Position numbers and translations under genes: made by a program. Below, one piece after another: positions 4,933-39,442 of a DNA stretch of 64,000 nt (its first letter is position 1; every line of letters begins with the position of its first letter). The notes under the pieces were generated by a model. It did not search any database. It saw only the letters and a list, made by a program, of their open reading frames with translations, and was not told the DNA's origin. Source of the DNA: Candidatus Zixiibacteriota bacterium (GTDB taxonomy: Bacteria; Zixibacteria; MSB-5A5; GN15; FEB-12); the NCBI GenBank assembly GCA_028289585.1, contig JANQPI010000035.1:466717-530716 (forward strand). The letters are read 5' to 3'.

Positions 4933-4933
4933 G

Positions 4934-5413
4934 GTGACCGACGAACAGCCCCCCCGCATTATCCTGGTCGATGACGAGGAGATCGTGCTGACGTCTCTCA
5001 GTTCATTCCTTCGCCTCGAAACTGAGTACGAAGTCGTCACGTTTCTGAAGCCGCAGGATGCACTCACCTACCTCGCTGATAACCATGCTGACCTGATCGT
5101 ATCGGACTATCTGATGCCGGAAATGGACGGTATCTCGTTTCTGGCTGAATGTCGAAAGCTGCATCCTGAAGTACCGCGAATCATCCTGACTGGATACGCC
5201 GACAAAGAAAACGCCATCAAGGCGATCAACGATGTCGGTCTGTTTCAGTACATCGAGAAACCGTGGGACAACGACGATCTCCTGATCATCTTTCGCAACG
5301 GTCTGGAAAAGCTGTACCTCATGAAGAAGCTGCAGCAGAAGATCGACGAGATCAATCGCGCCTATGGTGATCTTCAGGGTCTGCATCGAGAAATCGTGAA
5401 GACGTTCGTTTAA
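4934..5413 (+). CDS. Stand-alone response regulator receiver with coiled-coil tail
   Basis: It starts at GTG one base after the previous stop, behind a GAGG ribosome site. The 159-residue receiver has D13-D14, phosphoacceptor D58 in 'LIVSDYLMPEMDG', and the same 'TGYADKENAIKAINDVGLF' stretch as the preceding phosphatase, so the two receivers look like tandem duplicates. After the receiver (about residue 125) there is only a short coiled coil ending 'LQGLHREIVKTFV'. In RpfG-like regulators this linker normally leads into an HD-GYP or other output domain, but a stop codon follows directly here. It may therefore be a single-domain regulator that competes for phosphate or docks on a partner, or a truncated descendant of a two-domain protein. 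Confidence 0.88.
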   Translation: MTDEQPPRIILVDDEEIVLTSLSSFLRLETEYEVVTFLKPQDALTYLADNHADLIVSDYLMPEMDGISFLAECRKLHPEVPRIILTGYADKENAIKAINDVGLFQYIEKPWDNDDLLIIFRNGLEKLYLMKKLQQKIDEINRAYGDLQGLHREIVKTFV

Positions 5414-5555
5414 CCTTCCCGACCCCGTTCTCCAGTCACCAAAAGTAATCGCCGGACACTGCCGATAACCAGAATACCCCGAAATCGGTCGCGGGCGAGA
5501 CTGGCCACGAAAAAATGGTACGAGGCAGGAGTGGGGGAGAAGCGAATGAGGCGCG

Positions 5556-6377
5556 ATGTATACCGAAGATCCGGCACAGCTATCTGACGACACGCCCGCA
5601 GAGCAGGTTTTGTCGCCCTCCCCTGAGCCCGACACCACTCGGGATTCGCGGCGCGGAATCATTGCCGTTGTCGACGACGATCCAGATGAGTTAGCCGAAA
5701 CCTGCCGTCACCTGCGATCGGCTGGGTATTCGGTCGTGGAGGCGTTGGACGGACGAGTTGCAGCTCAGGAAATAGCCCGCCGCGAACACTGCGACCTCGT
5801 GATTACCGAGATTCAGATGGCTGGCGGCGACGGCTTCCGTTTGATGCAGGTACTCAAAGGCAATCAGCGATTCCGCATGATGCCAGTCATTATCTATTCC
5901 TCAAACACACAACCAGAACTGGTTCGCAAAGCGCTCGAATTCGGTGCCGCGGATTTCATCGCGAAACCCGCCGACCCTGCCAGTCTTCTCAGCAAAGTAG
6001 ACCGGGCTCTGGAAAAGGCGAATCGATACGTCTTGATCATCGACGATACGGTTATCGTTCGCGATCTCCTGCACAAAGTTGTCAAGCGCGAAGGCTATCG
6101 GGTTCTGGTTGCACGCTCGGCCGAGGAGGGCTTGGAGATTATCCAGTCCCACAACATCGCTGCTGTTATTAGCGACATTACATTGCCCAAAATGTCAGGC
6201 TTTGACTTTTTGGTGGCGGTTAAGGAATCCCATCCTCGGCTTCCAGTTATTCTCATTACCGGCCACACCGGTGAGTTCACACGAGATGATGCGATCAGTG
6301 CCGGTGCCGACGGCTACATCTGTAAGCCGTTCAAGAATACTGAAATAGCCGCTCGACTCTCGTCACTGATTCGCTAG
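5556..6377 (+). CDS. Tandem double-receiver protein, first receiver with Glu at the phosphorylation site
   Basis: The 273-residue protein has a disordered N-terminus (1-33) and then two receiver domains with no output domain. The second (about 157-273) is complete: acidic pair D163-D164, D207 in 'VISDITLPKMSG', and K257. The first (about 34-150) keeps the acidic cluster D40-D42 and K137, but the position of the phosphoacceptor Asp is E85 ('LVITEIQMAGGDG'). Asp-to-Glu at this place often mimics the phosphorylated state. Adjacent receiver genes lie upstream after a 142-nt gap, and a superoxide dismutase gene converges only 2 nt away. It may be a phosphorelay intermediate or an adaptor; no partner can be named. 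Confidence 0.88.
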   Translation: MYTEDPAQLSDDTPAEQVLSPSPEPDTTRDSRRGIIAVVDDDPDELAETCRHLRSAGYSVVEALDGRVAAQEIARREHCDLVITEIQMAGGDGFRLMQVLKGNQRFRMMPVIIYSSNTQPELVRKALEFGAADFIAKPADPASLLSKVDRALEKANRYVLIIDDTVIVRDLLHKVVKREGYRVLVARSAEEGLEIIQSHNIAAVISDITLPKMSGFDFLVAVKESHPRLPVILITGHTGEFTRDDAISAGADGYICKPFKNTEIAARLSSLIR

Positions 6378-6379
6378 GC

Positions 6380-7093
6380 TTAGCCTCGCGCCGACTGATA
6401 CAACTCCGCTACCCGGTTCCAGTTAACGACTTGCCACCAGGCGTCGACATAATCCGCTCGCCGATTCTGATATCGCAGGTAATAGGCATGTTCCCAGACA
6501 TCGATACCAAGGATCGGCGTCGCTCCCCACATCGCCAAATCATGCTGCTTTTCCGCCTGAGCAACGACCAGGCGATTGTCTTGAGGACGGTAGTGCAATA
6601 ACGCCCAGCCGCTTCCCTCAACCGTTCGAGCGGCGGCCGAAAACTGCCCGCGGAAGGCATCAAATGAGCCAAAATCTCTGTCAATCGCGGTAGCAAGTTC
6701 GCCCGACGGGCCCCCCGTTCCGGAGCTATCAGGTGGTGCCATCGTCTGCCAAAACAGCGTGTGCAGAACGTGCCCGCCGAAATGGAAAGAGAGTTTGCGG
6801 CTCCAGTGCTGGATCAGGCCATAGTCTTCGCTGGCCCGGGCTGCCGCCAGCGCTTCCTCAGCAGCTTTGAGTCCGTTGATATAGCCCTGGTGATGCCGGG
6901 AGTGATGGATCTCCATGGTCTGAGCATCGATCACCGGTTCGAGGTCAGCGTACCCATACGGCAACTCGGGAAGCTCATAGAAATCTGATCCGGATGGCTC
7001 GGCGCTCTGGGCAAAGAGACTGCCCCCTAACAGGGGTGCGCCGGCGGCGGCCAGTCCGGCGGTACGGATGAATGATCGTCGATCGAGGGTCAT
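6380..7093 (-). CDS. Tat-exported Fe/Mn superoxide dismutase
   Basis: The 237-residue protein starts with a twin-arginine signal (DRRSFIRTAGLAAAGAPLLGG, cleaved near LFAQS), so the folded metalloenzyme should be exported by Tat. The mature part has the Fe/Mn-SOD ligands: His in 'MEIHHSRHH', His in 'VLHTLFW', and Asp and His in '[12 protein letters not shown]'. It converts superoxide to oxygen and hydrogen peroxide, here probably in the periplasm. The start follows a near-perfect AAGGAGGT ribosome site. A second, cytoplasmic paralogue is encoded near 50.4 kb. Metal preference cannot be fixed from sequence alone. Its divergent neighbour is a DsbD-like reductase, so the two lie in an envelope redox block. 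Confidence 0.92.
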   Translation of the reverse strand: MTLDRRSFIRTAGLAAAGAPLLGGSLFAQSAEPSGSDFYELPELPYGYADLEPVIDAQTMEIHHSRHHQGYINGLKAAEEALAAARASEDYGLIQHWSRKLSFHFGGHVLHTLFWQTMAPPDSSGTGGPSGELATAIDRDFGSFDAFRGQFSAAARTVEGSGWALLHYRPQDNRLVVAQAEKQHDLAMWGATPILGIDVWEHAYYLRYQNRRADYVDAWWQVVNWNRVAELYQSARG

Positions 7094-7277
7094 GCGACCT
7101 CCTTGTCAGATTCGATTTAGTCTTCCCGTTAGTCAACGGAATGGCATTGCAGGAGTTCAAGTTCTATCTTTACGCCGTAAGGCTCGAGTCGTTCCTTCGA
7201 CGGATTCTGCGGCGGTCGGCCGCTGAAAGTCGGAACCGAACCTGACGCGAGGCGTGTAAGCGCCGTAACGGCAACGA

Positions 7278-9455
7278 ATGATGAAAGAGTCCATGACCCA
7301 CGTACGAAAGCTTATCACCCTGACCGGGCTAACCATTCTTGGACTAGCATTTGCCAGCACGATGGCGCTGGCCCAAAGTCGGATCGTCGACGGCCCCGTC
7401 ACCCTGCAGATCGCCGCGGAATCCCCTTCAGCTGTTCCCGGTCAGACAGTCAGCTTGGGACTCTATTTCGAAATCGAAGATCACTGGCACCTCTACTGGT
7501 TGAATCCGGGAGATGCTGGGCTTCCGCCGCGCGTCCGCTGGGAACACCCAGAAGGCGTTCAGATTGGCGACCTCCAGTTTCCCTATCCTGAACTGATCCG
7601 ATACCCGCCTCTTGCCAGTTACGGGTACGAATACGAGTTACTGCTACCGTTCTCTGTGACAGTCCCGGAGACTGCCGTCCCCGGCGAGCAGATCGAACTC
7701 GTCGCCAATGTCAGTTGGCTCGTCTGTAAAGAGGAGTGCATTCCGGGTAAGGGAACCGTGACGTTCTCTTTGCCCGTTGTCGCGCAGGCTGAGGCACCGA
7801 ATGAATTCTGGTCGACCAAGTTCAACGACACCCGCTTTCGGATGCCGATTGAATTGCCCGGCTGGAGCGCTGGCGTAGTCGGCACCGATGAGGCGATGAT
7901 CGTCACCGTCGTCCCCCCGTCACCCTATACCGATCCGCTCGATTCGATCTTCTTCTTTCCTCTGACCGACGGCCTGGTCGAGGCGATCGGAACGCAATCA
8001 ATAACTGTCGAGGACAGCCTGTTCTCTCTCTCGCTGCCCCGAACGGTCGCCAATCTGCCGGTTCCCGACACGGTGTCCGGTATTCTCTACAACCCGAATG
8101 GTTGGCGGGGAGAGGGATCGGAGCAAGCTCTCTGGCTGACCGCTACGAGCGACGGTGTGACCACAGCCGGTGCAGCAGCGACCACCGACAGTGGGATCAC
8201 GATTTGGCAGGCGATACTCTTCGCCTTCGTTGGCGGAATTATCCTCAATCTCATGCCGTGCGTGCTGCCGGTGCTGTCGCTGAAGATTCTTGGTTTCGTC
8301 CAACAGGCGGGGGAAGATCGCTCCAAAATCCTGTCCCACGGCCTCGTCTTCACACTCGGTGTCCTGGTTTCGTTTTGGATTCTCGCCGGCGCTTTGTTGA
8401 TTCTGCAGGCCACCGGCTCAGCGATCGGCTGGGGCTTCCAGCTCCAGTCACCTGCATTCCTGGTGGTCCTCTCCGGATTCATGTTCCTATTCGGACTCAA
8501 TCTTCTTGGTGTCTTCGAAATTGGAACTTCAATGCAATCAGTTGGGGGACAGGTTGTCGGCAAACAGGGGAACGCCGGTTCGTTTCTCAATGGGGTCACC
8601 GCGACAGTCGTCGCGACTCCGTGCACAGCACCGTTTATGGGAGCGGCGCTCGGATTTGCTCTCAGTCAACCGGCAATCGTGGCAATGGGGGTCTTCACTG
8701 CCCTCGGCCTCGGCATGGCGGCCCCCTATCTCGTTCTGTCGGCGTTTCCACGCCTGCTCCAGTTTGTCCCCAAACCGGGAGCGTGGATGGAATCGCTCAA
8801 GCAGTTTATGGGTCTGCTCCTGCTGGGCACGATCCTCTGGCTCTCCTGGGTACTCGGACTCCAAGCCGGGGCGACCGCCGTCAGTTGGCTGCTGGTCGGT
8901 CTTTTCGTTCTGGGGCTGGCGGCCTGGATCTACGGTCGTTGGGGCTCTCTCGCGCGGACCACAGCTGTTCGCCGATCCGCGACAGCACTAACCGTACTGC
9001 TCATTGCCGCGGGCCTTTTCTTCTCGATTCAAAATGTGAACGTTGAGGCAAAGAGTTATCAGGCTGGACTCATGGCCAACCCCGGAACGACCTCTTCTAA
9101 CACATCAGGTTTATCGTGGGAACCGTTTAGCCAATCGCTGGTTACGTCATACCTTGAAGCAAATTCTCCGGTCTTCGTTGACTTCACAGCAGCGTGGTGT
9201 ATCTCCTGCCAAGTCAACAAGCGCGTAGCGCTAAAGAATGATGACGTCGTTGCTGAGTTCGAGCGTCTTGGCGTTCGACCGGTAATTGCTGATTGGACCT
9301 CTCGCGACGAGATGATTACTCAGGCTCTGGCCGAATTTGGTCGGAACTCCGTTCCCCTCTACGTTTTATATGACGGAAAGGGAGGGGAACCAATCATCCT
9401 TCCCGAGGTACTGACTCCGGGTATCGTGCTGGAGTCTCTTGAGCGGCTCAACTGA
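7278..9455 (+). CDS. dsbD: Thiol:disulfide interchange protein DsbD-like (periplasm-facing reductase)
   Basis: The 725-residue protein begins with a signal peptide (cleaved near MALAQS), then an N-terminal DsbD-alpha-like periplasmic domain (about 30-290) with a Cys pair in 'LVCKEECIPGKG'. Eight or so membrane helices follow (about 310-590) with the paired cysteines of 'LMPCVLPVLSLK' and 'VVATPCTAPFMG'. It ends in a thioredoxin domain (about 625-725) with CxxC in 'AAWCISCQ'. The family passes electrons from cytoplasmic thioredoxin across the membrane to periplasmic thiol proteins. ATGs lie at 7278, 7281 and 7293; the last has an AAAGAG site at good distance and gives a shorter, more normal signal peptide, so the start may be 7293. 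The secreted redoxin next door is a plausible electron acceptor. Confidence 0.9.
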   Translation: MMKESMTHVRKLITLTGLTILGLAFASTMALAQSRIVDGPVTLQIAAESPSAVPGQTVSLGLYFEIEDHWHLYWLNPGDAGLPPRVRWEHPEGVQIGDLQFPYPELIRYPPLASYGYEYELLLPFSVTVPETAVPGEQIELVANVSWLVCKEECIPGKGTVTFSLPVVAQAEAPNEFWSTKFNDTRFRMPIELPGWSAGVVGTDEAMIVTVVPPSPYTDPLDSIFFFPLTDGLVEAIGTQSITVEDSLFSLSLPRTVANLPVPDTVSGILYNPNGWRGEGSEQALWLTATSDGVTTAGAAATTDSGITIWQAILFAFVGGIILNLMPCVLPVLSLKILGFVQQAGEDRSKILSHGLVFTLGVLVSFWILAGALLILQATGSAIGWGFQLQSPAFLVVLSGFMFLFGLNLLGVFEIGTSMQSVGGQVVGKQGNAGSFLNGVTATVVATPCTAPFMGAALGFALSQPAIVAMGVFTALGLGMAAPYLVLSAFPRLLQFVPKPGAWMESLKQFMGLLLLGTILWLSWVLGLQAGATAVSWLLVGLFVLGLAAWIYGRWGSLARTTAVRRSATALTVLLIAAGLFFSIQNVNVEAKSYQAGLMANPGTTSSNTSGLSWEPFSQSLVTSYLEANSPVFVDFTAAWCISCQVNKRVALKNDDVVAEFERLGVRPVIADWTSRDEMITQALAEFGRNSVPLYVLYDGKGGEPIILPEVLTPGIVLESLERLN

Positions 9456-9563
9456 GCGTTACACAGACACGAACAACGACACAATAAGGGGAGTGTCCGG
9501 GACAGCCCGCACCCGGTCCTAACCACACCAATCACACCGTGGGCAACGAGGAGAACGTACGAG

Positions 9564-10226
9564 ATGAAGAAGATCGCGTTAACGGGCCTTTCCGCATTGG
9601 CCCTGATTGTCAGCGCCAGCGTTATGGCGGACAATCATGGTGAGGGCGAAACTGAGGGGGAGGCCAAGGCCGAAGCCAAGATGATGACGGCCGAGGTCGG
9701 TAAGCCGGCCCCTGAATTCACTCTGACCGACGTGCATGGCAACGAGCACTCGTTGTCAGACTTTGCCGGTAAGAACGTTGTTCTGGAATGGATCAACTTC
9801 GATTGCCCGTTTGTGAAGAAATTCTACTCCGTCGGCAAAATGCAGGAGTGGCAGACAATGATGGCCGAACAGGATGTGGTCTGGCTAACGATCTGCAGCT
9901 CGGCTCCGGGCAAGCAGGGCCACTTTACCAACTTCATCATTAAAGAAAAGATGAAGGAGTTAGGTGCGGCTCCGGCTGGCTACCTGATTGATGAGACTGG
10001 TGAAGTCGGTCAACTGTACCAGGCAAAGACGACCCCCCACATGTACGTGATCGACGGTGAGGGTGTCCTCCGCTATGCTGGTGCGATCGATTCCAAAAAG
10101 TCAGCTGATCCGGCGGATATCGACGGTGCGACCAACTATGTAGCCGCGGCCCTGACTGCCATCATGGCCGGGGAAGAGGTCGAGGTTACTCAGACTGCCC
10201 CGTACGGCTGTTCCGTGAAGTACTAG
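9564..10226 (+). CDS. Secreted redoxin (AhpC/TSA-fold thioredoxin-like protein)
   Basis: A signal peptide (residues 1-22, MKKIALTGLSALALIVS) is followed by an acidic, low-complexity spacer (EGETEGEAKAEAK) and a redoxin domain from about residue 43. The usual CxxC or peroxidatic motif is replaced by 'NFDCPFVKKFY' with a single Cys (C81). Other cysteines are C111 ('LTICSS') and one in the C-terminal 'PYGCSVKY'. This DCPFVKK...GCSVKY pattern is a recurrent secreted subfamily whose substrate is not established. The ATG follows GAGGAGA. The gene is 108 nt downstream of the DsbD-like gene on the same strand and is closed by a strong terminator, so DsbD-mediated reduction is a reasonable inference. 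Confidence 0.85.
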   Translation: MKKIALTGLSALALIVSASVMADNHGEGETEGEAKAEAKMMTAEVGKPAPEFTLTDVHGNEHSLSDFAGKNVVLEWINFDCPFVKKFYSVGKMQEWQTMMAEQDVVWLTICSSAPGKQGHFTNFIIKEKMKELGAAPAGYLIDETGEVGQLYQAKTTPHMYVIDGEGVLRYAGAIDSKKSADPADIDGATNYVAAALTAIMAGEEVEVTQTAPYGCSVKY

Positions 10227-10249
10227 AGAAACAGAGACAGATTTGTCTG

Positions 10250-10286
10250 CGGCGCCCCGAGAGATCGGTGGCGCCGTTTTCTTTTT
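10250..10286 (+). terminator. Rho-independent terminator after the redoxin gene
   Basis: A GC-rich stem CGGCGCC/GGCGCCG, extended by an inner CCGA/TCGG pairing with a small bulge, is followed by TTTTCTTTTT. It starts 24 nt after the redoxin stop. Confidence 0.9.
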
Positions 10287-10361
10287 GGTTCTGCGCGGAA
10301 CGTTCGACCCCAGCGGGACGTTAGGTCTGGAAGTTACGACGTATCGAAAGGTCAGTATCTC

Positions 10362-11096
10362 GTGTCTAAATCGGGTGTTGTCATCATTGGAGCTACCTCC
10401 GCAATTGCACAGGCGACTGCACGTCGCCTCGCGGCTGATGGACGGCCGCTGTTTCTCGCGGGTCGTAATGAGAAACGGCTCGGAACGATCGCCCGGGAAC
10501 TGGGAGCGCCCTACCACGTGCTGACCGGAACTGACTTCGACTCGATTGCTGGCGTCGTCGACAGTGCAACGGGCGAGATCGGACCGATCAGCGGTATCGT
10601 CAACTGCATCGGCTCAATCGTTCTCAAGCCCGCCCACATCACTGCAGAATCAGACTATGATTCAGTTTTGGACACCAATTTGCGCTCGGCCTTTGCCACG
10701 GTGAGATCCGGTGCCAAGGCGATGCTTAAAACCGGTGGATCGATCGTTTTGATCAGCTCCGCGGCAGCCCAAACCGGACTGACTAATCACGAAATGATCG
10801 CTGCGGCGAAAGGTGCAATTATCTCGCTCACTCGAGCTGCGGCCGCCTCATATGCCACAAAGCAGATCCGCGTTAACGCGGTCGCTCCGGGATTAATTGA
10901 TACGCCGGCGGCCGCACGGCTGCTGGCCAGCGAGGCAAGCCGTCAGGCATCTGAGTCGATGCATGCTCTCGGGCGAGTCGGCAAACCAGATGACGTCGCC
11001 TCGGCTATCACTTGGCTCTTGGATCACGAGAACTCTTTTGTCACCGGTCAGGTCGTCGGTGTCGACGGTGGTTTGGGACATGTCCGGCCACGCTAA
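10362..11096 (+). CDS. Short-chain dehydrogenase/reductase lacking the catalytic tyrosine
   Basis: It starts at GTG after an AAAGG site. The 244-residue protein has the SDR Rossmann pattern (VVIIGATSAIAQATARRLA), the 'NCIG' strand-4 motif, Ser in 'IVLISSAAA', and the C-terminal 'VAPGLIDTP' and 'VTGQVVGVDGG' segments that mark FabG-like classical SDRs. The catalytic YxxxK reads IAAAK: K150 is present but I146 replaces tyrosine, and no nearby Tyr takes its place (NHEMIAAAK). Classical oxidoreductase chemistry is therefore doubtful. Homologues with 'NHE.IAAAK' exist as a recognisable SDR branch as far as I recall, so this is probably inherited rather than an error. It overlaps the next gene by 17 nt. 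The substrate is unknown. Confidence 0.85.
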   Translation: MSKSGVVIIGATSAIAQATARRLAADGRPLFLAGRNEKRLGTIARELGAPYHVLTGTDFDSIAGVVDSATGEIGPISGIVNCIGSIVLKPAHITAESDYDSVLDTNLRSAFATVRSGAKAMLKTGGSIVLISSAAAQTGLTNHEMIAAAKGAIISLTRAAAASYATKQIRVNAVAPGLIDTPAAARLLASEASRQASESMHALGRVGKPDDVASAITWLLDHENSFVTGQVVGVDGGLGHVRPR

Positions 11097-12096
11097 GATC
11101 GCATCGCCACAGCCAACGAAATGGCGAGCCAAGCCGTGGATGGGGGCGGTCATGCTCGCCGCGGCTGCCTACAACATTCTCTGGGGAATTGGGATCATTA
11201 TCTGGCCAAACGCGCTCTTCTCACTGGCCGGAATGGCCGCTCCGATGTACCCGTGGCTCTGGCAGTGTATCGGGATGTTTGTTCTCGTTTGGGGAATCGG
11301 TTACCTGGTGACTGCCTTCGATCCACTTCGCTACTGGCCGGTCGTTCTCGTCGGTCTACTTGGCAAAGTGTTCGGTCCAATTGGTTTTGTTTACGCAGCC
11401 GTTTCGGGGCAGATACCACTGGCGTTCGGTTGGACGATCATTACCAATGACCTCATCTGGTGGGTGCCGTTCGCTTTCATTCTCGCAACGGTTTACCATC
11501 GACAGTTCTTGGTGACTGCGGAGAGTGCAACCACAGCCGAGCGCAGGGATCTGCTGGCGACCTATCGGACCCAATGCGGTGAGCGCTTATCGACGCTCTC
11601 CAATCATGGACCGGTGCTTCTCGTTTTCCTTCGTCACTTCGGCTGTACGTTCTGTCGCGAGGCATTGACTGACATCAGCGAGCGGCGCGATGACCTTCGC
11701 GACCGAGGCGTTACACCGGTTCTGGTGCATATGCTTGAGCCGGATGATGACGCCGTGGTAACAGAACTAACAAAGTACGCACTGGACGATATCCCGCGGA
11801 TCGCTGATCCATCGAAAGCGCTCTATGGGGCATTCGGCCTTAATCGAGGATCGTTCCGTCAGCTTTTCGGCTGGAAAGCACTGACCCGCGGCTTCCGCGC
11901 CGGGGTCGTCGACGGTCACGGGGTAGGGATGGAGCTCGGCGATGGTTTCCAGATGCCGGGAGTTTTTGTTGTGGTCGACGGGGAAATCAAAGCCTCTTAC
12001 CGTCATGATTCCGCTGCTGACCGCCCTGACTATCTGGCCCTTGTCGATAAGTACCAAACTACCCCTCTGGAAACGATCGCTTCCAGCCCTTGCTAA
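11080..12096 (+). CDS. Membrane-anchored SelL-like / peroxiredoxin-like redox protein
   Basis: I place the start at ATG 11080, inside the end of the SDR gene, because longer versions only translate the SDR in another frame. The 338-residue product has four membrane helices (about 21-42, 60-80, 88-108, 118-138). A thioredoxin-fold domain follows from about residue 165, with CxxC at C189-C192 ('RHFGCTFCREAL'), and late motifs ('GDGFQMPGVFVV') of the AhpC/TSA_2 family. The SelL selenoproteins carry UxxU at this place, and this is a Cys-containing relative. The domain probably faces the cytoplasm, reduces or senses peroxides or disulfides, and takes electrons from a membrane or soluble donor. Co-translation with the odd SDR suggests joint use, by position only. 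Confidence 0.78.
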   Translation: MSGHAKIASPQPTKWRAKPWMGAVMLAAAAYNILWGIGIIIWPNALFSLAGMAAPMYPWLWQCIGMFVLVWGIGYLVTAFDPLRYWPVVLVGLLGKVFGPIGFVYAAVSGQIPLAFGWTIITNDLIWWVPFAFILATVYHRQFLVTAESATTAERRDLLATYRTQCGERLSTLSNHGPVLLVFLRHFGCTFCREALTDISERRDDLRDRGVTPVLVHMLEPDDDAVVTELTKYALDDIPRIADPSKALYGAFGLNRGSFRQLFGWKALTRGFRAGVVDGHGVGMELGDGFQMPGVFVVVDGEIKASYRHDSAADRPDYLALVDKYQTTPLETIASSPC

Positions 12097-12123
12097 CCAA
12101 GCCTCTCATCTGAGGTTATCTTG

Positions 12124-12567
12124 ATGAGCTATCAGGCGGGTCTTCTTGTCGCCCATGCGTTGCTTACAGCAATGATGACCGGTGTCATCTGGTTCGTGCA
12201 AATCCTTCACTACCCACTTATGCGACGACTTGGTCGAGACTCCTTTGTCGAGTACGAGCGAGAGCATACGCGCCTGGCCGGACTCATGATTGCTCCGCTT
12301 ATGATCGCTGAGCTCGCCACCGCGGGACTGGTGCTGCTTGCAACCCTGACAACGCCGCTCGCCACCGGCCTGATCGTTAACCTCGGTGCTCTCGTTGCAA
12401 TCTGGGCTCTGACTTTTCTCGTCTCTGTTCCACTCCACCGGAAACTCTGCGACACCTTTGACCAGGCTGTACTGAGACGTCTGATTCAGACCAACTGGTG
12501 GCGGACGGCGCTCTGGACAGTTCGGACGATCCTGCTCGGCTGGCTCACGCTGCGCGTGTTCGGGTAA
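12124..12567 (+). CDS. Conserved four-helix membrane protein of unknown function
   Basis: The 147-residue product has about four membrane helices: residues 5-25, 50-75, 80-100 and 125-143. The ATG at 12124 follows a GAGGT site; a TTG directly before it is less likely. The 'WFVQILHYPLMRRLG' and 'WWRTALWTVRTILLGW' segments are conserved-looking features of small bacterial inner-membrane proteins often annotated only as hypothetical. It is 27 nt after the SelL-like gene on the same strand and ends the run, so it probably belongs to that operon. No catalytic motif is visible. Confidence 0.75.
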   Translation: MSYQAGLLVAHALLTAMMTGVIWFVQILHYPLMRRLGRDSFVEYEREHTRLAGLMIAPLMIAELATAGLVLLATLTTPLATGLIVNLGALVAIWALTFLVSVPLHRKLCDTFDQAVLRRLIQTNWWRTALWTVRTILLGWLTLRVFG

Positions 12568-12581
12568 CCCGAGCGACCCCC

Positions 12582-12618
12582 GATAAAGAGAAAGCGGCCC
12601 CCCGCTTGGGAGGCCGCT
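12582..12618 (-). terminator. Terminator for the large secreted protein gene (minus strand)
   Basis: The stem AGCGGCC/GGCCGCT (12593-12599 with 12612-12618) is followed on the minus strand by a T-rich run (complement of 12582-12592). It lies about 25 nt beyond the minus-strand stop and between two convergent genes. Confidence 0.8.
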
Positions 12619-12642
12619 ACAAAGTCAGCTACGAGTAATTGC

Positions 12643-15600
12643 CTACTGACAGTTACGGAGCGGTGCCAGGCTGATGAAGAGATGATCAATAAGCGTCGAG
12701 AGATCCGCCAGATTGACCAGACCGTCGGTACCCGTCAGATCCGCCTCGCCGTCGCAGCAGAGCGGTGTGAACGAGATGAAGAGATGGTCAATCAACGTCG
12801 ACAGATCCGGCAGACCGACCGAGCCGTCACAATTGACATCGCCAGTCGAACCAACACAGCAACCACCTACGATCGTCTCAATGTTGTCGGAGAACCAGGT
12901 GGTGGCATCCTGTTTCAGGGTCGAAAGATCAGCCGAGCTGCCATCGCGCACGGCACCAAGAACAGTGTAGATACGCACGGTATCACCGGGACCAACCGCC
13001 AGATCATTGGCAAACGACAGCACGGTGTGAGCGTCGTCAGCCACGCCGTTCCACTGGAAACCACCCGCTCGCCAGATCGAATCAAGGACGCCCGGCAGGT
13101 AATTGCCACCGTTGGCAAAGATGAACGTCGGGTTGTCATTCACGCGGCCAGCTTCTGAATCAGCGGAGTTGATGACACCATCACCGACATCGATACCGAT
13201 TACAGCATTGCCGCCAAAACGATTCGTGTTGTCGATACAACTGACACCGGCGCCGATCTGAACGATCATACCGTCATCAGCGATACCGGTACCCGTGTTC
13301 GATCCGAAGTCAGGAATATCCCAGTCGATAATCGAGCCGAACGAGAACGTGTTCGTATCGCTGTTTCCGGTGTACACTTTGTACCCAAGAATCATGTACG
13401 ATCTGTTCACATCCGCCTGATCGGGAGCATAGAACTCCGCCTCATAACGAATTCGACCGTCTTGAGTCTGAACCGTTCCGGAGTTGTAGTAGCGGTAGTT
13501 ACCAAAGTTGGTTACCGGAACGGTCGGGTTGCCAACCGCGACCTTCGAAACGTCACGATCGTTCTGGAAAAACTCCGAAAGTACCGGGCTCGATGCGGCA
13601 TTGGTGATGATCGCCGGTGAGCCGCTGAAGAGGTAGCTCCCGCCGCAATCACCAACTCCGTTGAAGCTAAAGCCGGTACCATTCTGCGAACCGTAGCGAC
13701 CGAAGTTATCGATCGTGAGACTGACAACATCGTTCGTGATCTGATCGAGGACGATCGAGTTGTCGACTTCGCAAACATCGCCAATGCCATTGCTGTCAGC
13801 ATCGGTCTGATCGGGATTAAAGGCGTCGACGCAGTTATCGGCGGCGCAGATTTCATTGCCGAAGCCTTCACCGAAGCCATCGAAGTCGCGGTCGGTGCAA
13901 TCGTCGCAGACGTCACCGATGAAGTCGCCGTCGAGGTCTGACTGATCCGCATTACTCGTACCTGGGCAGTTATCACAGACATCTGGGACGCCATCAGCGT
14001 CACTGTCGGTCGTTCCAGGGCAGTCGACAATCACCGAGTACATCGAACGGCCATGCGTCCCGGCGACGAGTTTTCGCGTCTTCGGATCCATGACGAGGTC
14101 ATGGACACAGGTGATCGGGAGATCGGTACCGAGCGGAGCCCAGGTGCCGCCCAGATCCGTTGTCACATAAACACCTACGTCCGACCCGACATACAACGTG
14201 TTCAGATCGTGCGGATCGATGATGACATCGTTCAGCGGTGCGTCCGGAAGATTGCTCTGAATCTGCGTCCAGGTTGTTCCAAAGTTGGTCGAGCGATAGA
14301 TGCGCGGCAGCGTCTCGGCGTTCGTCTGATAGCCTGAGAGCGTGAGGTAGACGATCGCGGCATTCGTGGGATCGACAGTCAGGCGCGTTACCCAGCGATT
14401 CGGCAGGCTGCCACTGATCAGCGTCCAGTTCGGAGTGGCATCGTATGCGTTGGTAGTGACCCAGACTCCGCCCGAGCTTGACCCGGTGTAGATGACATTC
14501 GAATCGCTCTTGGCGACACCGATCGCTTTCATTGACCCCGATGTGAGATCACCAGAAAGATCGGTCCACGACTCGCCTCGGTCACGGGAGCGGAAGACCC
14601 GGTCCGAACCGTAGTAAAGAATACGGGGATCGTTCGGATCCATTTCAACCGGTGTGTTCCAGTTGGTTGTCCCGGAAGTTCCACCGGTGATGCTGGAGAA
14701 TGAAAAGCCGCCGTCGTCGGAGCGCGCCAGGTTACCAAACTGCGACTCGGCGTAGATAATATCCGGGTTAGCGTAATCGACGAGGGTATAGAAGCCGTCG
14801 CCACCAAAGATGCGGGTCCAGTCGTCGAGAGCACCAGTCAGAGTACGATTTGTTCCGTTGTCCTGCGTGCCGCCGTACAACCGCTCTGGATTCTGATAAT
14901 CGAGCGTGATCGCATAGAACTGCGTGTTCGGCATGTTGAAGAAGGTCGTCCAACTGCCACCGCTGTTACTCGAGTAGTTAACTCCGCCGTCGGTGCCAGT
15001 GAACACCTCACCATCGGCAAATGCAATCAGATCGTGGAAGTCGACATGCTGGATACCGGTGTTATTGAACCACGAACTGTTGCCACCGTTTTCAGTCTTG
15101 CGGAGAGAAACAGCAAGCACCCAGACCTCGTCAGGATTTCCAATCTTGGCCCGGACCTGTCCGAAGTACCAGGCGAAGCCGCCCCCCTGACCGTCGATGC
15201 CACCATCATCCGTACGAGTCCAATTGACTCCGAGGCTGTCTGTTGATTTGTAGACCGATTCGATCGTCTGATCAGATCCGTCGACATGGACGACAAACCA
15301 GGTGCCTGTGACCGGCTCAACTTCAACGCCGATACGGCCAAAGTTACCGCCAGCATCCGTGTCGACGGGTAAGCCTCCCGTACCTGAAAGTACACTGAAC
15401 GACCCCGACGTTCCAAACGTGCTGGAACGCCAGACCGCGGTGGCCGAACCTTGGGTCCAGTTCCAGATCACGGCGAGCACGACTCCGGTGTTCGGATCGA
15501 GATCGACATCGATCACACCCGCGTTCGACGGCGTCGTCAGGACTCGGGTCCAAGAGGTACCCGCATCTTCAGAACGCCAGAGGCCTTTGTCGGAGCCGTA

Positions 15601-33047: not shown

Positions 33048-33857
33048 CTACTGTTTGATCGCACCAGCCGTGATCCCCGAGACGATATGTCGTTGCAGGA
33101 TAACAAAAACCACCAGAACCGGGACAACCGCCAGGGTGGCGCCAGCCATCAGCTCCGGCCACTCGATACCCTGCCTCCCCTGAATCATCGCAAGAGCCAC
33201 GGGCAGGGTGTGGAGATCGGATCGAGAGGTGAGGATGAAGGGAAAGAGAAACGAATTCCAGTTAGTGAAGAAGACCTGAATCGCCAATACGACCAGGGCC
33301 GGTCTCGCCATTGGCATTACGATCTGAAACAGAATACGAAACTCCGACGCACCATCAACTCGCGCTGCTTCCTCCATCGCGGTTGGAATCCCGTCGAGGT
33401 ACTGCTTCACCAGAAAGATCCCGATGGGATTGACCAGGAAGGGAAGAATGAGCGCTCCGTACGTATCGTACAGGCCCGATTCGACGGCGAGTAGATAGAG
33501 GGGAATGATCACGATGTGGACCGGCACGAACAGCACCGCCAGAACCGTAAAGAGAATAAACCGATTCTCGATGAGGCGGTACCGAGAGAGTGCGTAGGCG
33601 CACATGAAGCCAAACAGAATGTTGCCAATCGTCACGCCGCCGCCCACAACGAGCGAATTAAAAAACGGTCGCACGAGACCGTCGCTATCGAGCAACGCCA
33701 ACACGTTTGCACCAGTGACTGTTACCGACAACAGCGTCTCGGCCGTCAACGGCAACCCCTTGGGTAGTAATGCTACCCGCAGCATCCAGAGCATCGGAAA
33801 GATGGTGATCATAAGCACGAGCCCCAACAGTCCATAACGAAAGAGGGTCGTTACCAT
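33048..33857 (-). CDS. Carbohydrate ABC transporter permease (MalG/UgpE-type)
   Basis: The 269-residue protein has six membrane helices and the cytoplasmic EAA loop (EEAARVDGASEFRILFQIVMP) that docks on the ATPase. It forms the import channel together with the MalF-type partner encoded just upstream. The ATG follows GGAG and overlaps the end of that gene by 7 nt. This is the third gene of the minus-strand unit: binding protein, permease, permease. The substrate is probably a sugar or sugar derivative, judged from the family only. Confidence 0.93.
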   Translation of the reverse strand: MVTTLFRYGLLGLVLMITIFPMLWMLRVALLPKGLPLTAETLLSVTVTGANVLALLDSDGLVRPFFNSLVVGGGVTIGNILFGFMCAYALSRYRLIENRFILFTVLAVLFVPVHIVIIPLYLLAVESGLYDTYGALILPFLVNPIGIFLVKQYLDGIPTAMEEAARVDGASEFRILFQIVMPMARPALVVLAIQVFFTNWNSFLFPFILTSRSDLHTLPVALAMIQGRQGIEWPELMAGATLAVVPVLVVFVILQRHIVSGITAGAIKQ

Positions 33858-34717
33858 AGCGATCTCCTTTGCCGTGCGAAGGCAAGAAACGGTAGCAGCG
33901 AAACGAGTCCGATAATCAGGAAGAGCAGGTAGGCGGCGGCCGATGCATACCCAAAAGAGAAATCAGTCGTGAGTGCCTGCTCATAGATGAAAAAGACGAT
34001 CGTGGCCGTATCGAATTTTCCCTTAGTCATTACAAAGATCTCGGTGAAGACCTGGAACGACTTGATCGTGTTGATTACCAGTATGTAGCCGAGAACCGGT
34101 CGGAGGAGCGGAAGTGTGATCGAACGGAACCGTCGCCACCACGACGCTCCCTGAACCGTCGCGGCATCATACAGCTCCCGCGGAATTGCTTCGAGTCCGG
34201 CGAGAAAAATCAGCATGTAGTAGCCGACCGACATCCAGACGTCCATCCCCATGATCGCGAACAGCGCAGTGCGATCGTCAAAGAGGAAACCGTACTCCGG
34301 AGGCGTAAAGCCAAGGAGCGACGCGAGAGTCGCGAGGTAGCCACCGCGCGCGAACAGGTTCGTGAAGATGAGCGCGACGACAACAATCGATGTCAACCAG
34401 GGGAGAAAGAACCCAGCGCGGAAGAGGGTTCGACCACGAAACGGATGTTGCAGGAGGAGCGCTAAGGCAAGGGCAATAACGGTCGTGACGGGGATCGTCC
34501 CTAGTACAAAGACAAACGTGTTCTCTAACGCTCCCAGGAAGTCAGAATCTCGCAGCAGTGCCAGGTAATTGGCGATGCCGATGAAACTCGGATCGCGAAA
34601 GAGCTGATAGTCGGTCAGGCTGAGGTAGATCGACCAGCCAATGGGGAACAGCCAGAAGAGCGCCAGCGTCAACAGCCAGGGAGATAGGAGCGCGAGCGAA
34701 CGCCAACGCTGCGTCAT
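33851..34717 (-). CDS. Carbohydrate ABC transporter permease (MalF/UgpA-type)
   Basis: The 288-residue protein has six helices and the EAA-type loop 'ELYDAATVQGASWWRRF' followed by 'ITLPLLRPV'. It pairs with the MalG-type permease. Its start codon shares one base with the stop of the binding-protein gene, so the three genes are translated together. No extra N-terminal helices like those of E. coli MalF are present, which fits the UgpA/LacF type. Confidence 0.93.
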   Translation of the reverse strand: MTQRWRSLALLSPWLLTLALFWLFPIGWSIYLSLTDYQLFRDPSFIGIANYLALLRDSDFLGALENTFVFVLGTIPVTTVIALALALLLQHPFRGRTLFRAGFFLPWLTSIVVVALIFTNLFARGGYLATLASLLGFTPPEYGFLFDDRTALFAIMGMDVWMSVGYYMLIFLAGLEAIPRELYDAATVQGASWWRRFRSITLPLLRPVLGYILVINTIKSFQVFTEIFVMTKGKFDTATIVFFIYEQALTTDFSFGYASAAAYLLFLIIGLVSLLPFLAFARQRRSLW

Positions 34718-35958
34718 TAGTCGTCAGCGATAAGCGAATCAATCGTTCGCTGCGCTTGTCGCAATTCACCGGCGATGAATCGTGATCCGAACAGCGCCTC
34801 TTCGACGGCGCGTTCGATTGCCGCTTCGATCTTCGGCCAGTCAGGCGTGACCGGCGGATGCGTGACACGCTGCATTTGACCATTCATCGTTCGCATCATC
34901 GGTTGCGACACGAAGAAGCTATCCGTGACCGCAGCGAGTGACGATGGCACCGAGATGAAGGCCGCCTTGCAGAAGGCGACCTGGACATCCGGCCGGTTCA
35001 AAAAGCGGACAAACTCAAGCGCCTCGTCGGTATAACGCGACTTCCGGTTGATCGCCAGCAACTCACCGCCGAGAAATGAGATCCCCGGCACCCGACCACC
35101 CGGGACAAACATCGTTCCCACCAGAAACGGGGGAGGATTCAGGTTGATGCGCTTGATCATCCAGTCACCGGAAAGGACAATGCCGACCTGACCGGCCATA
35201 AAGGCATCTTCGATACCACGCTGGGTATCAACGTAGCCAACGGAGTCGTGAAGCTGCCGATAGAAATCGAGCGCCTCAATCGCCATCTCCGAAGAGACAA
35301 CCGAGTATCGTCGCGGCGCATAGGGTGACGGTTCGCTCAGGATTCGACCTGCGTTCCCCCACAAGAAGGGAAGGAACTTCTTGTACAGGCGATGCTTCTC
35401 AGCGGTGTTGGAGCCCCAACCATAAATTTCGTCGCCGAGAGTGTGGATCTTCCGTGTGATCTCCTGAAAACCCGCGAATGTGGCCGGATTTGGTGCCTCG
35501 GCATCGGGATATGCCTGCTGCAGGAGATTGACATTCACAAACATCACGCGTGAACCAAGGATCCAGGGCCAGGCATAGAGTTCGTCCTGGTAACGAGCCA
35601 AACTCCACCCTCGCCACCCCGATGTGTCGGCTCCGACCAGCTCGCTGATCGGCAGCAGTTGATCGGTGTCAGCAAACTGCGCCAACCAATCCGATCCCAG
35701 TTCGACGACGTCGGGTCCCCGCCCGGAGGCAAACGCGATGGCTATTTTGCTTTGACCATCGGCCCAGGTGAGATCGGTGATGTTTACCTCAATCTCACCA
35801 TTCTGCTCGGCTTCGAAGACAGTCACGAGAGAATCGAGGACAGGGCGAATATCGCTGTCGGTCCAGAACTGCCAGAATTCCAGTGTTGTCTTGGCACTCA
35901 GTGAAGGAACGGTGCCGACGGCAATGAACAGGGCTATCGAAACAAGCATCGATTTCAT
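34717..35958 (-). CDS. Extracellular solute-binding protein, family 1
   Basis: I place the start at ATG 35958 because it directly opens a signal peptide (MKSMLVSIALFIAVGTVPSLSA). A TTG at 35994 would add twelve Arg-rich residues. The mature protein (about 390 residues) begins 'KTTLEFWQFWTD' and has the family-1 pattern 'AFASGRGPDVVELGSDWLAQFA' and 'VLSGDWMI'. It captures a carbohydrate in the periplasm and hands it to the two permeases downstream. No ATPase gene is nearby, so a shared MsmK/UgpC-type ATPase is probably used. The 86 nt to the divergent membrane operon must hold both promoters. Confidence 0.92.
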   Translation of the reverse strand: MKSMLVSIALFIAVGTVPSLSAKTTLEFWQFWTDSDIRPVLDSLVTVFEAEQNGEIEVNITDLTWADGQSKIAIAFASGRGPDVVELGSDWLAQFADTDQLLPISELVGADTSGWRGWSLARYQDELYAWPWILGSRVMFVNVNLLQQAYPDAEAPNPATFAGFQEITRKIHTLGDEIYGWGSNTAEKHRLYKKFLPFLWGNAGRILSEPSPYAPRRYSVVSSEMAIEALDFYRQLHDSVGYVDTQRGIEDAFMAGQVGIVLSGDWMIKRINLNPPPFLVGTMFVPGGRVPGISFLGGELLAINRKSRYTDEALEFVRFLNRPDVQVAFCKAAFISVPSSLAAVTDSFFVSQPMMRTMNGQMQRVTHPPVTPDWPKIEAAIERAVEEALFGSRFIAGELRQAQRTIDSLIADD

Positions 35959-36044
35959 GTTGACGATGGTCGCGTGAGCGCGCGCGCGTCGCAATCCTAA
36001 AGTTGTTGTTGCCGCATGGCCGCTACCGGCGTTCGTAATTCGTC

Positions 36045-36836
36045 ATGCTAGTGCCATTGACGGCGTGGATTGAACCCGATCGTCTGCCGATACTGATCGC
36101 CGCGATTATCGCCACTGCCATCGTCCTTTACACGACGTATCACCGGCGATCGCGGGACCGGTATCGTATGCGCCCTATCCAGGGATTACAGGCGGTGGAG
36201 GATGCTATCGGACGTGCTACCGAGATGGCCCGACCACTGCTCTTCACGCCGGGCTGGGGGGGAGATATTCAGCGTCCCACCACGATTGCCGCGCTTAACA
36301 TTCTCTCCCACGTCGCCGAAAAAACATCCCGCTACGATTGCCGTCTGCTGTTTCCGACTCACGATCCGGTCATCATGTCGGTGGCTCAGGAGGTTGGTCG
36401 GGAAGCGTACATCCGGACGGGCCATTCCGACCGCTTTCAGGCTGATGACTTCGCCTATGTTTCGTCGTCGCAGTTCGGCTATGCGGCGGCAGTGGAGGGA
36501 ATGATTGCCCGCGAGAACCCGGCCTCGGTCTTTCTGCTCGGTACGTTTGAAGCCGAATCACTCATCCTGGCCGAAGTTGGCAATGCGAGCGGGGCGATAC
36601 AGATTGCCGGTACCGATTCCACCATTCAGTTAGCGTTCTTCATTGTGGCGTGTGACTACACACTGATCGGCGAAGAGCTGTTCGCGGCCTCAGCGTATCT
36701 CTCGCAGGACCCTGCCATCCTGGCGTCGGTTCGAGCCCAGGACATTATGAAAGTCCTCATCGTTATCGCGATCCTCACGCTCTTAATCATTGCGAGCACA
36801 GTCGGATGGCCGCTGGAGAGCCTCAGTGCGCCGTAA
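36045..36836 (+). CDS. Uncharacterised membrane protein, first gene of a membrane operon (DUF6754-like)
   Basis: The 263-residue protein has one TM near the N-terminus (about 14-34), a mixed alpha/beta soluble part (about 45-235) and a C-terminal TM (about 236-256). The soluble part contains 'LLFTPGWGGDIQRPTTIAAL', 'CRLLFPTHDPVIMSVAQEV' and 'FGYAAAVEGMIARENPASVF', and it resembles proteins carrying DUF6754. I recall that name rather than having verified it. The alternation suggests a Rossmann-like fold held at the membrane. It opens a run of five overlapping genes. No catalytic residues are recognised and the function is unknown. Confidence 0.75.
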   Translation: MLVPLTAWIEPDRLPILIAAIIATAIVLYTTYHRRSRDRYRMRPIQGLQAVEDAIGRATEMARPLLFTPGWGGDIQRPTTIAALNILSHVAEKTSRYDCRLLFPTHDPVIMSVAQEVGREAYIRTGHSDRFQADDFAYVSSSQFGYAAAVEGMIARENPASVFLLGTFEAESLILAEVGNASGAIQIAGTDSTIQLAFFIVACDYTLIGEELFAASAYLSQDPAILASVRAQDIMKVLIVIAILTLLIIASTVGWPLESLSAP

Positions 36837-37449
36837 GCTGCCCCAGATCATCGTCGCCGCCGTTGGTTTGATCATGTTTCTTGTCTACTTCTCCGGACAC
36901 CCCACCGCCCAACGTGTCAATCAGACTATCCTCGTCGACTACTGGCAGATCATCTTCGCCTTCACGCTGATCGTCGGCGTTATCGGCTTCGCACGAAGCA
37001 ACCTGCAGCAGATTCAGCGCGGTGATGGACGTTTCTTTCGCATCGTATCCCTCGTGGGGCTCGTCTCAATGCCGATTCTCGCGCTGATCGGCGGTATCAA
37101 TGCGGGGTCACCATTCGTGTGGATGTTTGATCATGTTCAGGCACCGATGCAGGCGACCGTTTTTGCGCTGCTCGCATTCTTCGTCGCATCGGCCGCGTTG
37201 CGTGGTTTCCGCGCCCGATCGGTCCCCGCGGCCATCTTGCTGCTGGCAGCGACGATCACACTGCTCGCGCGATCCGATGTTGGCGGTGCAACGATCGCCT
37301 GGCTGCCGGAAACAGCTGAATGGATTCGGGCGCATCCCTCAATGGCGGCCCGCCGCGCCATTCTGATCGGTATCGGGCTCGGCTCACTCACGACATCGCT
37401 CCGAATCCTCATTGGGATCGAACGGACTTGGCTGGGGAGTGAACGATGA
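36826..37449 (+). CDS. Uncharacterised polytopic membrane protein
   Basis: The start is GTG 36826, with GGAGA eight bases upstream, inside the end of the previous gene. The 207-residue product has six or so membrane helices (about 5-25, 38-58, 70-92, 105-125, 130-148, 170-190). A conserved-looking central segment is 'PFVWMFDHVQAPMQATVFALLAFF'-like in hydrophobicity, with a Trp-Met-Phe-Asp core. It overlaps the next gene by four bases. No family is recognised. Tight overlap on both sides points to a complex with its neighbours. Confidence 0.75.
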   Translation: MRRKLPQIIVAAVGLIMFLVYFSGHPTAQRVNQTILVDYWQIIFAFTLIVGVIGFARSNLQQIQRGDGRFFRIVSLVGLVSMPILALIGGINAGSPFVWMFDHVQAPMQATVFALLAFFVASAALRGFRARSVPAAILLLAATITLLARSDVGGATIAWLPETAEWIRAHPSMAARRAILIGIGLGSLTTSLRILIGIERTWLGSER

Positions 37450-38264
37450 ATTCTGCGCTATCGAGACGACTCGCGTTCGCGGGTCTATTCATTGCGGTGA
37501 CCGTTGCCATGCTGATTCCGTCGGAAGGCGATGTCCGCGTTGCTCCGGAAACTCGCCAGTTGTATGAGTGGATTGATTCGATCCCACCCGGCAGCCAAGT
37601 TATTGTATCGTTTGACCACGAAGCATCAGCACTCCCGGAAATCCGCCCTCTTGCACTCGCTCTCTTGCGCCATTGCTTCGAGCGAGACCTCGTACCGATC
37701 GGTGTATCGCTGCTGGCCGAGGGAACAGGCATTGGCTTCGCCCTGATGGACCAGACCGCGGACGAATACGACAAGACCTACGGGGAGGATTACGCCTTCC
37801 TCGGATTCAAACCGCAGTTCATCGCGGCGATCCTGTCGATGGGGGAATCGATTCCGGCCACCTACCCGGAAGACTATCTCGGCACACCGATCGACTCTCT
37901 TCCCGCTATGGTTGGTGTGACTACCTATGACGACGTGGTTGGGGTACTGTCAATTGCCGACGGATCAATGACCACGCATTGGGTCGAGTACGGGGAAGCC
38001 CGCTTCGGCGTGCCGATCGCCGGCGCCGTCACGGCCGCTATGATCACCAGTTACGACCCGTATTTAGCGTCCGGTCAGATGGTCGCACTCATGGGCGGGT
38101 TGCGCGGTGCTGCCGAATATGAACAACTGATCGGTATCGGCGGGGGAGGCTCACGCGGACTCTTGGCCCAATCGGTTAGCCACCTCTACGTATTGGCAAT
38201 GATCATCATTGGCAATCTCCTCTGGTGGCGTGCGCGCCGCCGTAAGGGGAAGGAAAGCGTATGA
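37446..38264 (+). CDS. Uncharacterised protein with N- and C-terminal membrane anchors and a large exposed domain
   Basis: The 272-residue product has a TM at about 9-27 and another at about 245-262, with a 210-residue domain between them that probably faces the periplasm. Visible segments are 'IPPGSQVIVSFDHEASALPE', 'FLGFKPQFIAAILSMGESI' and 'YEQLIGIGGGGSRGL'. The topology mirrors that of the first gene of the operon (TM, soluble domain, TM). It overlaps both neighbours by four bases (ATGA). The family is not recognised. Confidence 0.75.
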   Translation: MNSALSRRLAFAGLFIAVTVAMLIPSEGDVRVAPETRQLYEWIDSIPPGSQVIVSFDHEASALPEIRPLALALLRHCFERDLVPIGVSLLAEGTGIGFALMDQTADEYDKTYGEDYAFLGFKPQFIAAILSMGESIPATYPEDYLGTPIDSLPAMVGVTTYDDVVGVLSIADGSMTTHWVEYGEARFGVPIAGAVTAAMITSYDPYLASGQMVALMGGLRGAAEYEQLIGIGGGGSRGLLAQSVSHLYVLAMIIIGNLLWWRARRRKGKESV

Positions 38265-38875
38265 TCGACTGGGGAACGATTATCGCCGGATTGCTGACCC
38301 TTGCCATCTTCACGTTCCTTTATGGCGACAATCCGATCTACCGCTTCGCTGAATCCCTCCTGATCGGCGTGTCGATCGGCTATTTTCTGGTCATCACCTG
38401 GCAGAACACGATCGTATCCCTGCTCATCAAACCGCTGGTTAGCGACGGTCGTATCGGCCTCATCATCCCCCTGGGGCTGGGTCTGCTCATGCTGAGCCGG
38501 TTCTCCTCACGGCTTAGCTTTCTGTCGCGATTACCCATTGCGGTGCTGATCGGGTCGGGAGCCGGTGTCGCGATTCCGGCGATGCTCGATGCGCGAACGT
38601 TACGACAAATTGACGCCACGATAGCACCCCTGTGGACCGACGGCGGACTGGCGATCGGGACAATTGTGGTCGTCCTTGGCGTGCTCACCACCCTCGCGTA
38701 CTTTTACTTCAGTCGCGCACAGACGGGCAGCCTGGGACGAATCTCCCAGATCGGCATCTATTTCTTAATGGTCTTCTTCGGGACGACGTTTGGCTATACG
38801 GTCATGTCGCGGATGTCGACATTCATTGGCCGCATGGAGTTTCTCCTCGTCGATTTCCTCCGCCTGACCCAATGA
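38261..38875 (+). CDS. Uncharacterised polytopic membrane protein
   Basis: The 204-residue product has about six membrane helices (about 5-22, 27-48, 62-78, 88-108, 125-147, 163-183). Arg/Lys-rich loops lie between some helices. It resembles the second gene of the operon in size and helix count, so the operon alternates anchored and polytopic proteins. It overlaps the zinc-ribbon gene by four bases. No family is recognised. Confidence 0.72.
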   Translation: MIDWGTIIAGLLTLAIFTFLYGDNPIYRFAESLLIGVSIGYFLVITWQNTIVSLLIKPLVSDGRIGLIIPLGLGLLMLSRFSSRLSFLSRLPIAVLIGSGAGVAIPAMLDARTLRQIDATIAPLWTDGGLAIGTIVVVLGVLTTLAYFYFSRAQTGSLGRISQIGIYFLMVFFGTTFGYTVMSRMSTFIGRMEFLLVDFLRLTQ

Positions 38876-39012
38876 TCTGTCCCCGTTGCCGGACAGCCAT
38901 GCAGGAGGAACGACGTTCTTACCACAAGCAGCGCAAGTGGATTTGCCCCAAATGCGGTCGGGTTCGTTTTCAGCAGCTGGTCGACAAAACGAAACCACGG
39001 CGCTCCAATTAG
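38872..39012 (+). CDS. Small zinc-ribbon protein (46 residues)
   Basis: This short ORF starts at the ATG of an ATGA overlap with the preceding membrane gene. It encodes two CxxC knuckles, 'MICPRCRTAM' and 'KWICPKCGRVRF', 19 residues apart, with a basic tail ending KPRRSN. This is a classic zinc ribbon, probably binding zinc through four cysteines. The overlap makes it the last gene of the membrane operon. A small adaptor or regulator role is inferred from size and position only. Confidence 0.72.
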   Translation: MICPRCRTAMQEERRSYHKQRKWICPKCGRVRFQQLVDKTKPRRSN

Positions 39013-39055: not shown

Positions 39056-39442
39056 ATGCTTATGGCTATGATGACAGGCGTAGATCGCATTCGTGTGGGG
39101 ACGTCGGGGTACTCCTTTCTCGGCTGGAAGGGAGTCTTCTATCCGCGCAGGATCGATAGAGGGAAGGTGTGCGAGCTTTCTGCCTGCATGGTTGCTCGCA
39201 TACCACCGATCCACGACGTCATGGACAAAGCACCGGCCTCGCTTACAAACCGACGCGAGGATCTCACGGCCAAACGAAACGACTCCGTAAACGCAACCTC
39301 GTTTGGGACAGACCGGCCGGAACAGTTGTTGCCGGCGGCGTGGAAACAGTATGTCTTTTTTGATTACTGCCCTGTGGGGCAGGAGTTTTTTTGGTTGAAC
39401 ACACGCGCTAATCGCGGTGATTCCAGCGAACCAGAAGGATGA
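39056..39442 (+). pseudogene. Decayed DUF72 (YecE-like) gene remnant
   Basis: The frame begins with the hallmark DUF72 N-terminus ('DRIRVGTSGYSFLGWKGVFYP'), then 'RRIDRGK'. After that it jumps to pieces that match later parts of the family in order: 'RIPPIHDVMDKAP' and 'NRREDLTAKRND'. The segment that should hold the first helix and the second strand is missing, as is nearly the whole C-terminal half (DUF72 proteins are about 240-280 residues). The frame then continues with no family similarity. I read it as an internally deleted, inactive copy. A short real protein cannot be ruled out. A terminator closes it. Confidence 0.6.
39367..39392 (+). terminator. Rho-independent terminator between the membrane operon and the ABC exporter
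   Basis: The stem CTGCCC/GGGCAG has a TGTG loop and is followed by GAG and seven T residues. It lies inside the end of the DUF72 remnant frame, which further suggests that the frame is not coding there. Confidence 0.85.

Follow-up and report, generated by a model that had tools for sequence, protein, structure and literature searches.

The stretch of DNA analysed here (the window, 64,000 nucleotides from a Candidatus Zixiibacteriota bacterium) contains at positions 36045-39012 a run of five overlapping genes, referred to below as G1 to G5, and the question raised by this locus is whether the five genes specify a single membrane system and, if so, what such a system might do. The sequence-only reading of the window had described anchored soluble proteins alternating with polytopic ones, a very small CxxC-CxxC protein at the end of the run and divergence of the whole set from a sugar importer. 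The open reading frames bear out this description exactly, with overlaps of 11, 4, 4 and 4 nt at the G1/G2, G2/G3, G3/G4 and G4/G5 junctions, a TM-soluble-TM plan for G1 and G3, six TM segments for G2 and about six for G4, and an importer binding protein and two permeases upstream on the opposite strand (Table 1).

Table 1. Coordinates of the five-gene operon and of neighbouring features in the window
Feature	Position	Strand	Remarks
Two importer permeases	33048-33857 and 33851-34717	-	open reading frames read
Importer binding protein, divergent	34717-35994	-	likely true start ATG at 35958
G1	36045-36836	+	ATG start, 263 aa; PF20539 (DUF6754)
G2	36826-37449	+	GTG start, 207 aa; six TM
G3	37446-38264	+	272 aa; TM-soluble-TM
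G4	38261-38875	+	204 aa; about six TM
G5	38872-39012	+	46 aa, CxxC...CxxC zinc ribbon
Decayed DUF72 remnant	39056-39442	+	tblastn E=1e-13, to parts only of relatives' DUF72 proteins
Terminator-like hairpin and T run	39367-39390	+	would close the transcription unit; consensus match only

The five-gene layout is not a matter of chance, because 66 of the 83 loci, which come from many phyla, contain complete quartets with the gene order G1-G2-G3-G4, 77 in all (many of the loci that lack a complete quartet are interrupted by contig ends), and because at 29 of the 30 ribbon loci that were read the ribbon gene lies directly 3' of G4, separated from it by -4 to +66 nt. The proposal of an undescribed five-gene membrane system is upheld insofar as the genes are co-inherited and undescribed, but the unit is the quartet, and the ribbon is absent from the four other quartets of the window's genome as well as from most copies elsewhere. 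Of the five genes, G1 to G4 travel together across genomes, whereas the ribbon is kept without a quartet at three loci (L221, L225 and L227) and therefore belongs to the locus and not to the core complex. It seems to be a separable, locus-linked accessory rather than a core subunit. The quartet itself is a real, widely conserved and undescribed system.

The zinc ribbon, which is probably cytosolic, was found in 106 of 130 Zixibacteria genomes, mostly as a single copy. Its two CxxC knuckles are shared with the small zinc ribbons of the YnfU, FmdB and TFIIB types, but it falls below every curated cut-off (for example, 22.1 versus 36 bits for the YnfU family of zinc-binding proteins, to which it was accordingly not assigned) and carries a motif of its own, KRSfHKqRKW...VRFQ, seen in the alignment as CPxC..M.E.kRSfHKqRKW.CPxC..vRFQ.

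The genome from which the window was taken (3.15 Mb, 99.6% complete), whose relatives place it in the Zixibacteria, encodes five DUF6754 genes, each of which heads a G1-G2-G3-G4 quartet: one is the window copy, on contig C16, another lies on C21, and C19 carries a tandem run of three. The corresponding Pfam family, PF20539, was detected in all 133 genomes examined for the phylum Zixibacteria, mostly in 4-6 copies, whereas the 14 well-known genomes that served as controls all lack it; a system that no genome of a phylum lacks usually has a central task. A scan of public genomes yielded 80 loci, which according to the titles of their records come from about 13 phyla or candidate phyla, and the gene order of the quartet was seen directly in records of about 13 phyla. 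In the Armatimonadota, a phylum with cultured members, DUF6754 occurs in 103 of 121 sampled genomes, mostly as one copy; of the 16 loci opened there, all have c8 ahead of G1 and G2, and 15 contain a full quartet. The presence of the quartet in most Armatimonadota brings this long-standing blank within experimental reach. At one of the Armatimonadota loci, L190, G1 was located by its PF20539 match, and an apparent G1-G2 fusion proved to be an artefact of ORF calling.

The distances of the four quartet genes correlate with each other (Spearman 0.49-0.71), and in three of the pairs of loci that were compared (L036 and L059, L041 and L059, L056 and L058) all four genes pick the same partner copy, while the choice for L036 and L041 is mixed. 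Judged from such sequence comparisons, each quartet is inherited as a unit. Several phyla have two or three quartets in a tandem array (L012, positions 4458-15254; also L036, L041, L059, L083 and L094), which hints that paralogous quartets may form a heteromeric assembly, and at L200 of the Armatimonadota, as well as at G178:C34, two adjacent G1 genes precede a single G2-G3-G4 set.

When each of the five proteins was searched against profile libraries, only G1 scored above a cut-off, and G2 to G5 were either below the cut-offs or without a match. The contention that no member can be linked to a known pathway thus stands for G2 to G4, which lie outside every characterised family, but G1 is a clear member of PF20539 (E=7.9e-95, 317.3 bits versus a gathering cut-off of 27, covering positions 4-247 of 257), for which the Pfam entry gives only a domain of unknown function. 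In the library that was searched, no paper names DUF6754 or describes this gene cluster and its partners. Three of the four subunits are without a family model, and none has a close solved relative.

AlphaFold2 models of G1 (pLDDT 90.6, with TM helices at residues 11-36 and 223-253) and of G3 (pLDDT 96.2) both depict a six-stranded alpha/beta domain between two TM segments. Based on hydropathy and the positive-inside charge bias, the Rossmann-like domain is predicted to be cytosolic in G1 and extracytoplasmic in G3. Foldseek comparisons of the two models with the PDB returned only generic Rossmann-like folds, none at E<=1e-3 and mostly with TM scores <0.4, and for G3 neither Pfam nor NCBIfam gave a match, nor did the PDB sequences at E<=0.5. 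Homology between G1 and G3 was considered on account of their shared TM-Rossmann-like-TM plan and similar-looking C-terminal motifs and was rejected, since hhalign did not support it and a reversed control scored equally. Conservation within G1 is highest in the DUF6754 domain, while the ectodomain varies: some relatives have much longer N-terminal regions, and the ectodomain may be absent, an FN3 domain (over the cut-off in L086 and L048) or hundreds of residues in length. The window copy has no FN3-like ectodomain, and many Armatimonadota copies likewise lack an ectodomain.

The polytopic proteins G2 and G4, the latter of which is kept directly after G3 across loci, are predicted to be opposite in topology. 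Hydropathy and charge distribution over 36 homologues predict six TM segments with both termini inside for G2, and the same kinds of evidence predict about six segments with both termini outside for G4. Neither protein has a Pfam, NCBIfam or PDB match over the cut-offs, and no homology between the two was found. Identification of G2 as an EutH ethanolamine permease was discarded (14.2 bits versus a cut-off of 25, with a match in just one of 36 G2 proteins).

Four partners recur in the company of the quartets and are all present in the genome of the window: an actin-fold ATPase that resembles GlmL/MutL, a barrel-sandwich/KOW protein, a small protein designated c8, and c15, which is bacterial-PH-like. 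There, the tandem array on C19 is divergent to an operon whose genes encode a MutL-family ATPase, a secreted anchored protein and the KOW protein, and a c15-c8 pair resides on C20. A c8-MutL-KOW-G1-G4 cluster is seen repeatedly, in several phyla, and at the Armatimonadota locus L203 the genes c15-c8-G1-G2-G3-G4-MutL-KOW are consecutive. The arrangement c15-c8-G1-G4 is typical of the Armatimonadota, where c8 directly precedes G1 in 16 of 16 loci and c15 lies directly upstream in 11 of them; c8 was also found in 50 of 50 cases in the Zixibacteria. The KOW protein occurs in 121 of 130 Zixibacteria genomes (78 of the 79 of good quality), and of the 26 genomes with a quartet that were reached by way of other loci 24 have it, two of them only in a weaker fused form. 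Among the best matches, which alone were listed, it lies <=10 kb from a listed DUF6754 gene, in both relative orientations, for at least 40 of the 64 genomes in the comparison. Fusions of MutL and KOW of ~940 aa (L135, positions 4968-7808, with similar ORFs in L136, L137 and L138) also exist; within the sequence that was read, they lie apart from the quartet. The MutL and KOW genes adjoin only some of the quartet copies, and none is tied to the window copy itself.

The ATPase partner carries the invariant ASKHA-type motifs DCGSTTTK, DxGGATTD and GSGG, and the protein encoded on C19 is a member of PF13941 (436.4 bits versus a gathering cut-off of 27), the GlmL/MutL family whose namesake is an accessory of the B12-dependent glutamate mutase. 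It differs from GlmL in its neighbours, which are the membrane quartet and the barrel-sandwich/KOW protein, and it was rejected both as a GlmL equivalog (NF040745, 243.3 bits versus a cut-off of 475) and as an Or-4 equivalog (228 versus 600). A membrane role may exist for a GlmL-like lineage that has been named only after the B12 mutase accessory. Among 11 members of the KOW protein there are weak matches to Biotin_lipoyl (9), RnfC_N (6) and NQRA_N (3), and 3 of 10 c15 members show a resemblance to bPH_6 that stays below the cut-off. Profile and fold searches against the PDB yielded nothing significant, and no match to an ABC ATPase was detected in G1 to G5 or in the MutL, KOW, c8 and c15 proteins.

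A fixed quartet, domains on both faces of the membrane and an ATPase and adaptor that co-occur with it genome-wide are most simply read as a membrane complex that is assembled or driven by ATP. That G1 to G4 would form a co-inherited complex is well supported, and co-inheritance, gene order and co-divergence make it quite probable that the four associate physically as stoichiometric subunits. We suggest that these are the subunits of one inner-membrane complex, in which G2 and G4, six-TM proteins with opposite topologies, would be joined by the anchored Rossmann-like proteins G1, facing the cytoplasm, and G3, facing the outside. In most lineages the cytosolic MutL-like ATPase, the barrel-sandwich/KOW adaptor, c8 and the bacterial-PH-like membrane protein c15 might serve this complex; for the ATPase we regard such a partnership, with the coupling to ATP that it implies, as fairly likely. 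The most likely task of the complex would be to move or assemble some component, assisted by ATP, in or across the inner membrane; G1 would handle this component on the inside and G3 on the outside. As a whole, such an ATP-assisted inner-membrane complex is the best explanation that we can offer, although we give it somewhat less than even confidence, and the transport or assembly role taken separately, together with the cargo and direction that it would require, is a little more tentative still. In its boldest form, the proposal would be that a near-universal, pseudo-symmetric G1-G4 machine of the Zixibacteria, the Armatimonadota and about a dozen further phyla, on which the MutL-like ATPase acts through the KOW adaptor, represents a new class of ATP-driven envelope machines with several paralogous quartets per cell, one of them attached to sugar uptake; this we consider doubtful.

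Two other roles are close rivals of transport or assembly, each of them rather improbable in our estimation. The quartet might be a transmembrane sensor or signalling platform, in which the G1 ectodomain senses an external cue and the cytosolic DUF6754 domain relays it to the MutL and KOW proteins, as would suit the variable ectodomain, the greater conservation of the DUF6754 domain and the several paralogues per genome. However, the ectodomain is missing from the window copy and from many Armatimonadota, Pfam searches of the quartet and its partners reveal no output domain (kinase, receiver, GGDEF, HTH or any other), and a conserved extracytoplasmic G3 domain plus two six-TM subunits exceed the needs of a sensor. 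Alternatively, the Rossmann-like domains might be catalytic parts of an envelope-biogenesis complex that would modify a precursor of a lipid or glycan, or flip it. There are two such domains, their weak Foldseek matches include glycosyltransferases and dehydrogenases, and some copies reside among housekeeping genes (GlmU-, AroK- and AroB-like, for example, as identified by reading the sequences), but the fold matches are not significant, no catalytic signature was seen and, in a test for catalytic pockets, conserved residues were not enriched at strand C-termini.

The remaining explanations are considerably less likely. Rnf and Nqr combine a cytosolic barrel-sandwich subunit with two six-TM subunits that are opposite in topology and with an anchored subunit outside the cytoplasm, a layout that resembles in general terms that of the quartet plus the KOW protein, and the weak KOW-protein matches would also fit an ion- or redox-coupled complex working in the same way. 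Rnf and Nqr have conserved Cys ligands for a 2Fe-2S center in their six-TM subunits, whereas the invariant and near-invariant columns of G2 and of G4 include no Cys; no flavin- or Fe-S-binding Pfam domain was found in any component, nor was there a flavin-binding match among the G3 members or an NADH/FMN-domain match among the KOW members, and we regard this explanation as very improbable. Only slightly less so is the notion that the five genes are no more than accessories of the sugar importer next to them in the Zixibacteria. A divergent importer is indeed kept in 16 of 21 window-type loci (the other five show no binding protein in the stretch read, some being cut by contig ends), but other phyla have quartets too, the window's own genome has four more at importer-less sites, and L221 and L225 retain importer and ribbon in the absence of the quartet. 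Judged by their defining features, membership in the Rnf/Nqr, ABC, EutH and GlmL groups was rejected in each case.

The single locus noticed in the window is one specialised paralogue of a wider system that includes the MutL-like ATPase, the barrel-sandwich/KOW protein, c8 and c15. Zixibacteria have several paralogous quartets, and the window copy, which groups in a well-supported clade of Zixibacteria copies in the tree, is best read as the one specialised to the locus shared with the sugar ABC importer. Linkage to the importer is limited to the Zixibacteria, and because of this shared locus the window copy probably concerns carbohydrate uptake or the envelope. A scan of the gap between the importer and G1 revealed no sigma-70-like promoter, and no inverted repeats were seen, which is uninformative for this phylum. 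In most relatives an intact DUF72 gene occupies the place of the decayed remnant 3' of G5.

Some further observations were made along the way. Among the neighbour genes read around the importer (33048-35994) there is no ABC ATPase, and the same set of genes recurs in relatives. A locus labelled Ignavibacterium (L024) is of the window type and groups inside the Zixibacteria clade; it is probably mis-binned. ExbB/ExbD/TonB-like and TonB-dependent-receptor-like genes, identified by reading the sequences, lie 3' of the quartet in the Fermentibacteria and Stahlbacteria (L043, L049, L071, L074 and L092; L070 and L088), and they were left out of the model because they are neighbours in these two lineages only. 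A gene for a MazG-like pyrophosphohydrolase is located just upstream of G1 at L035, L041, L050, L053, L059, L062 and L080, which belong to WOR-3, Stahlbacteria and Latescibacterota.
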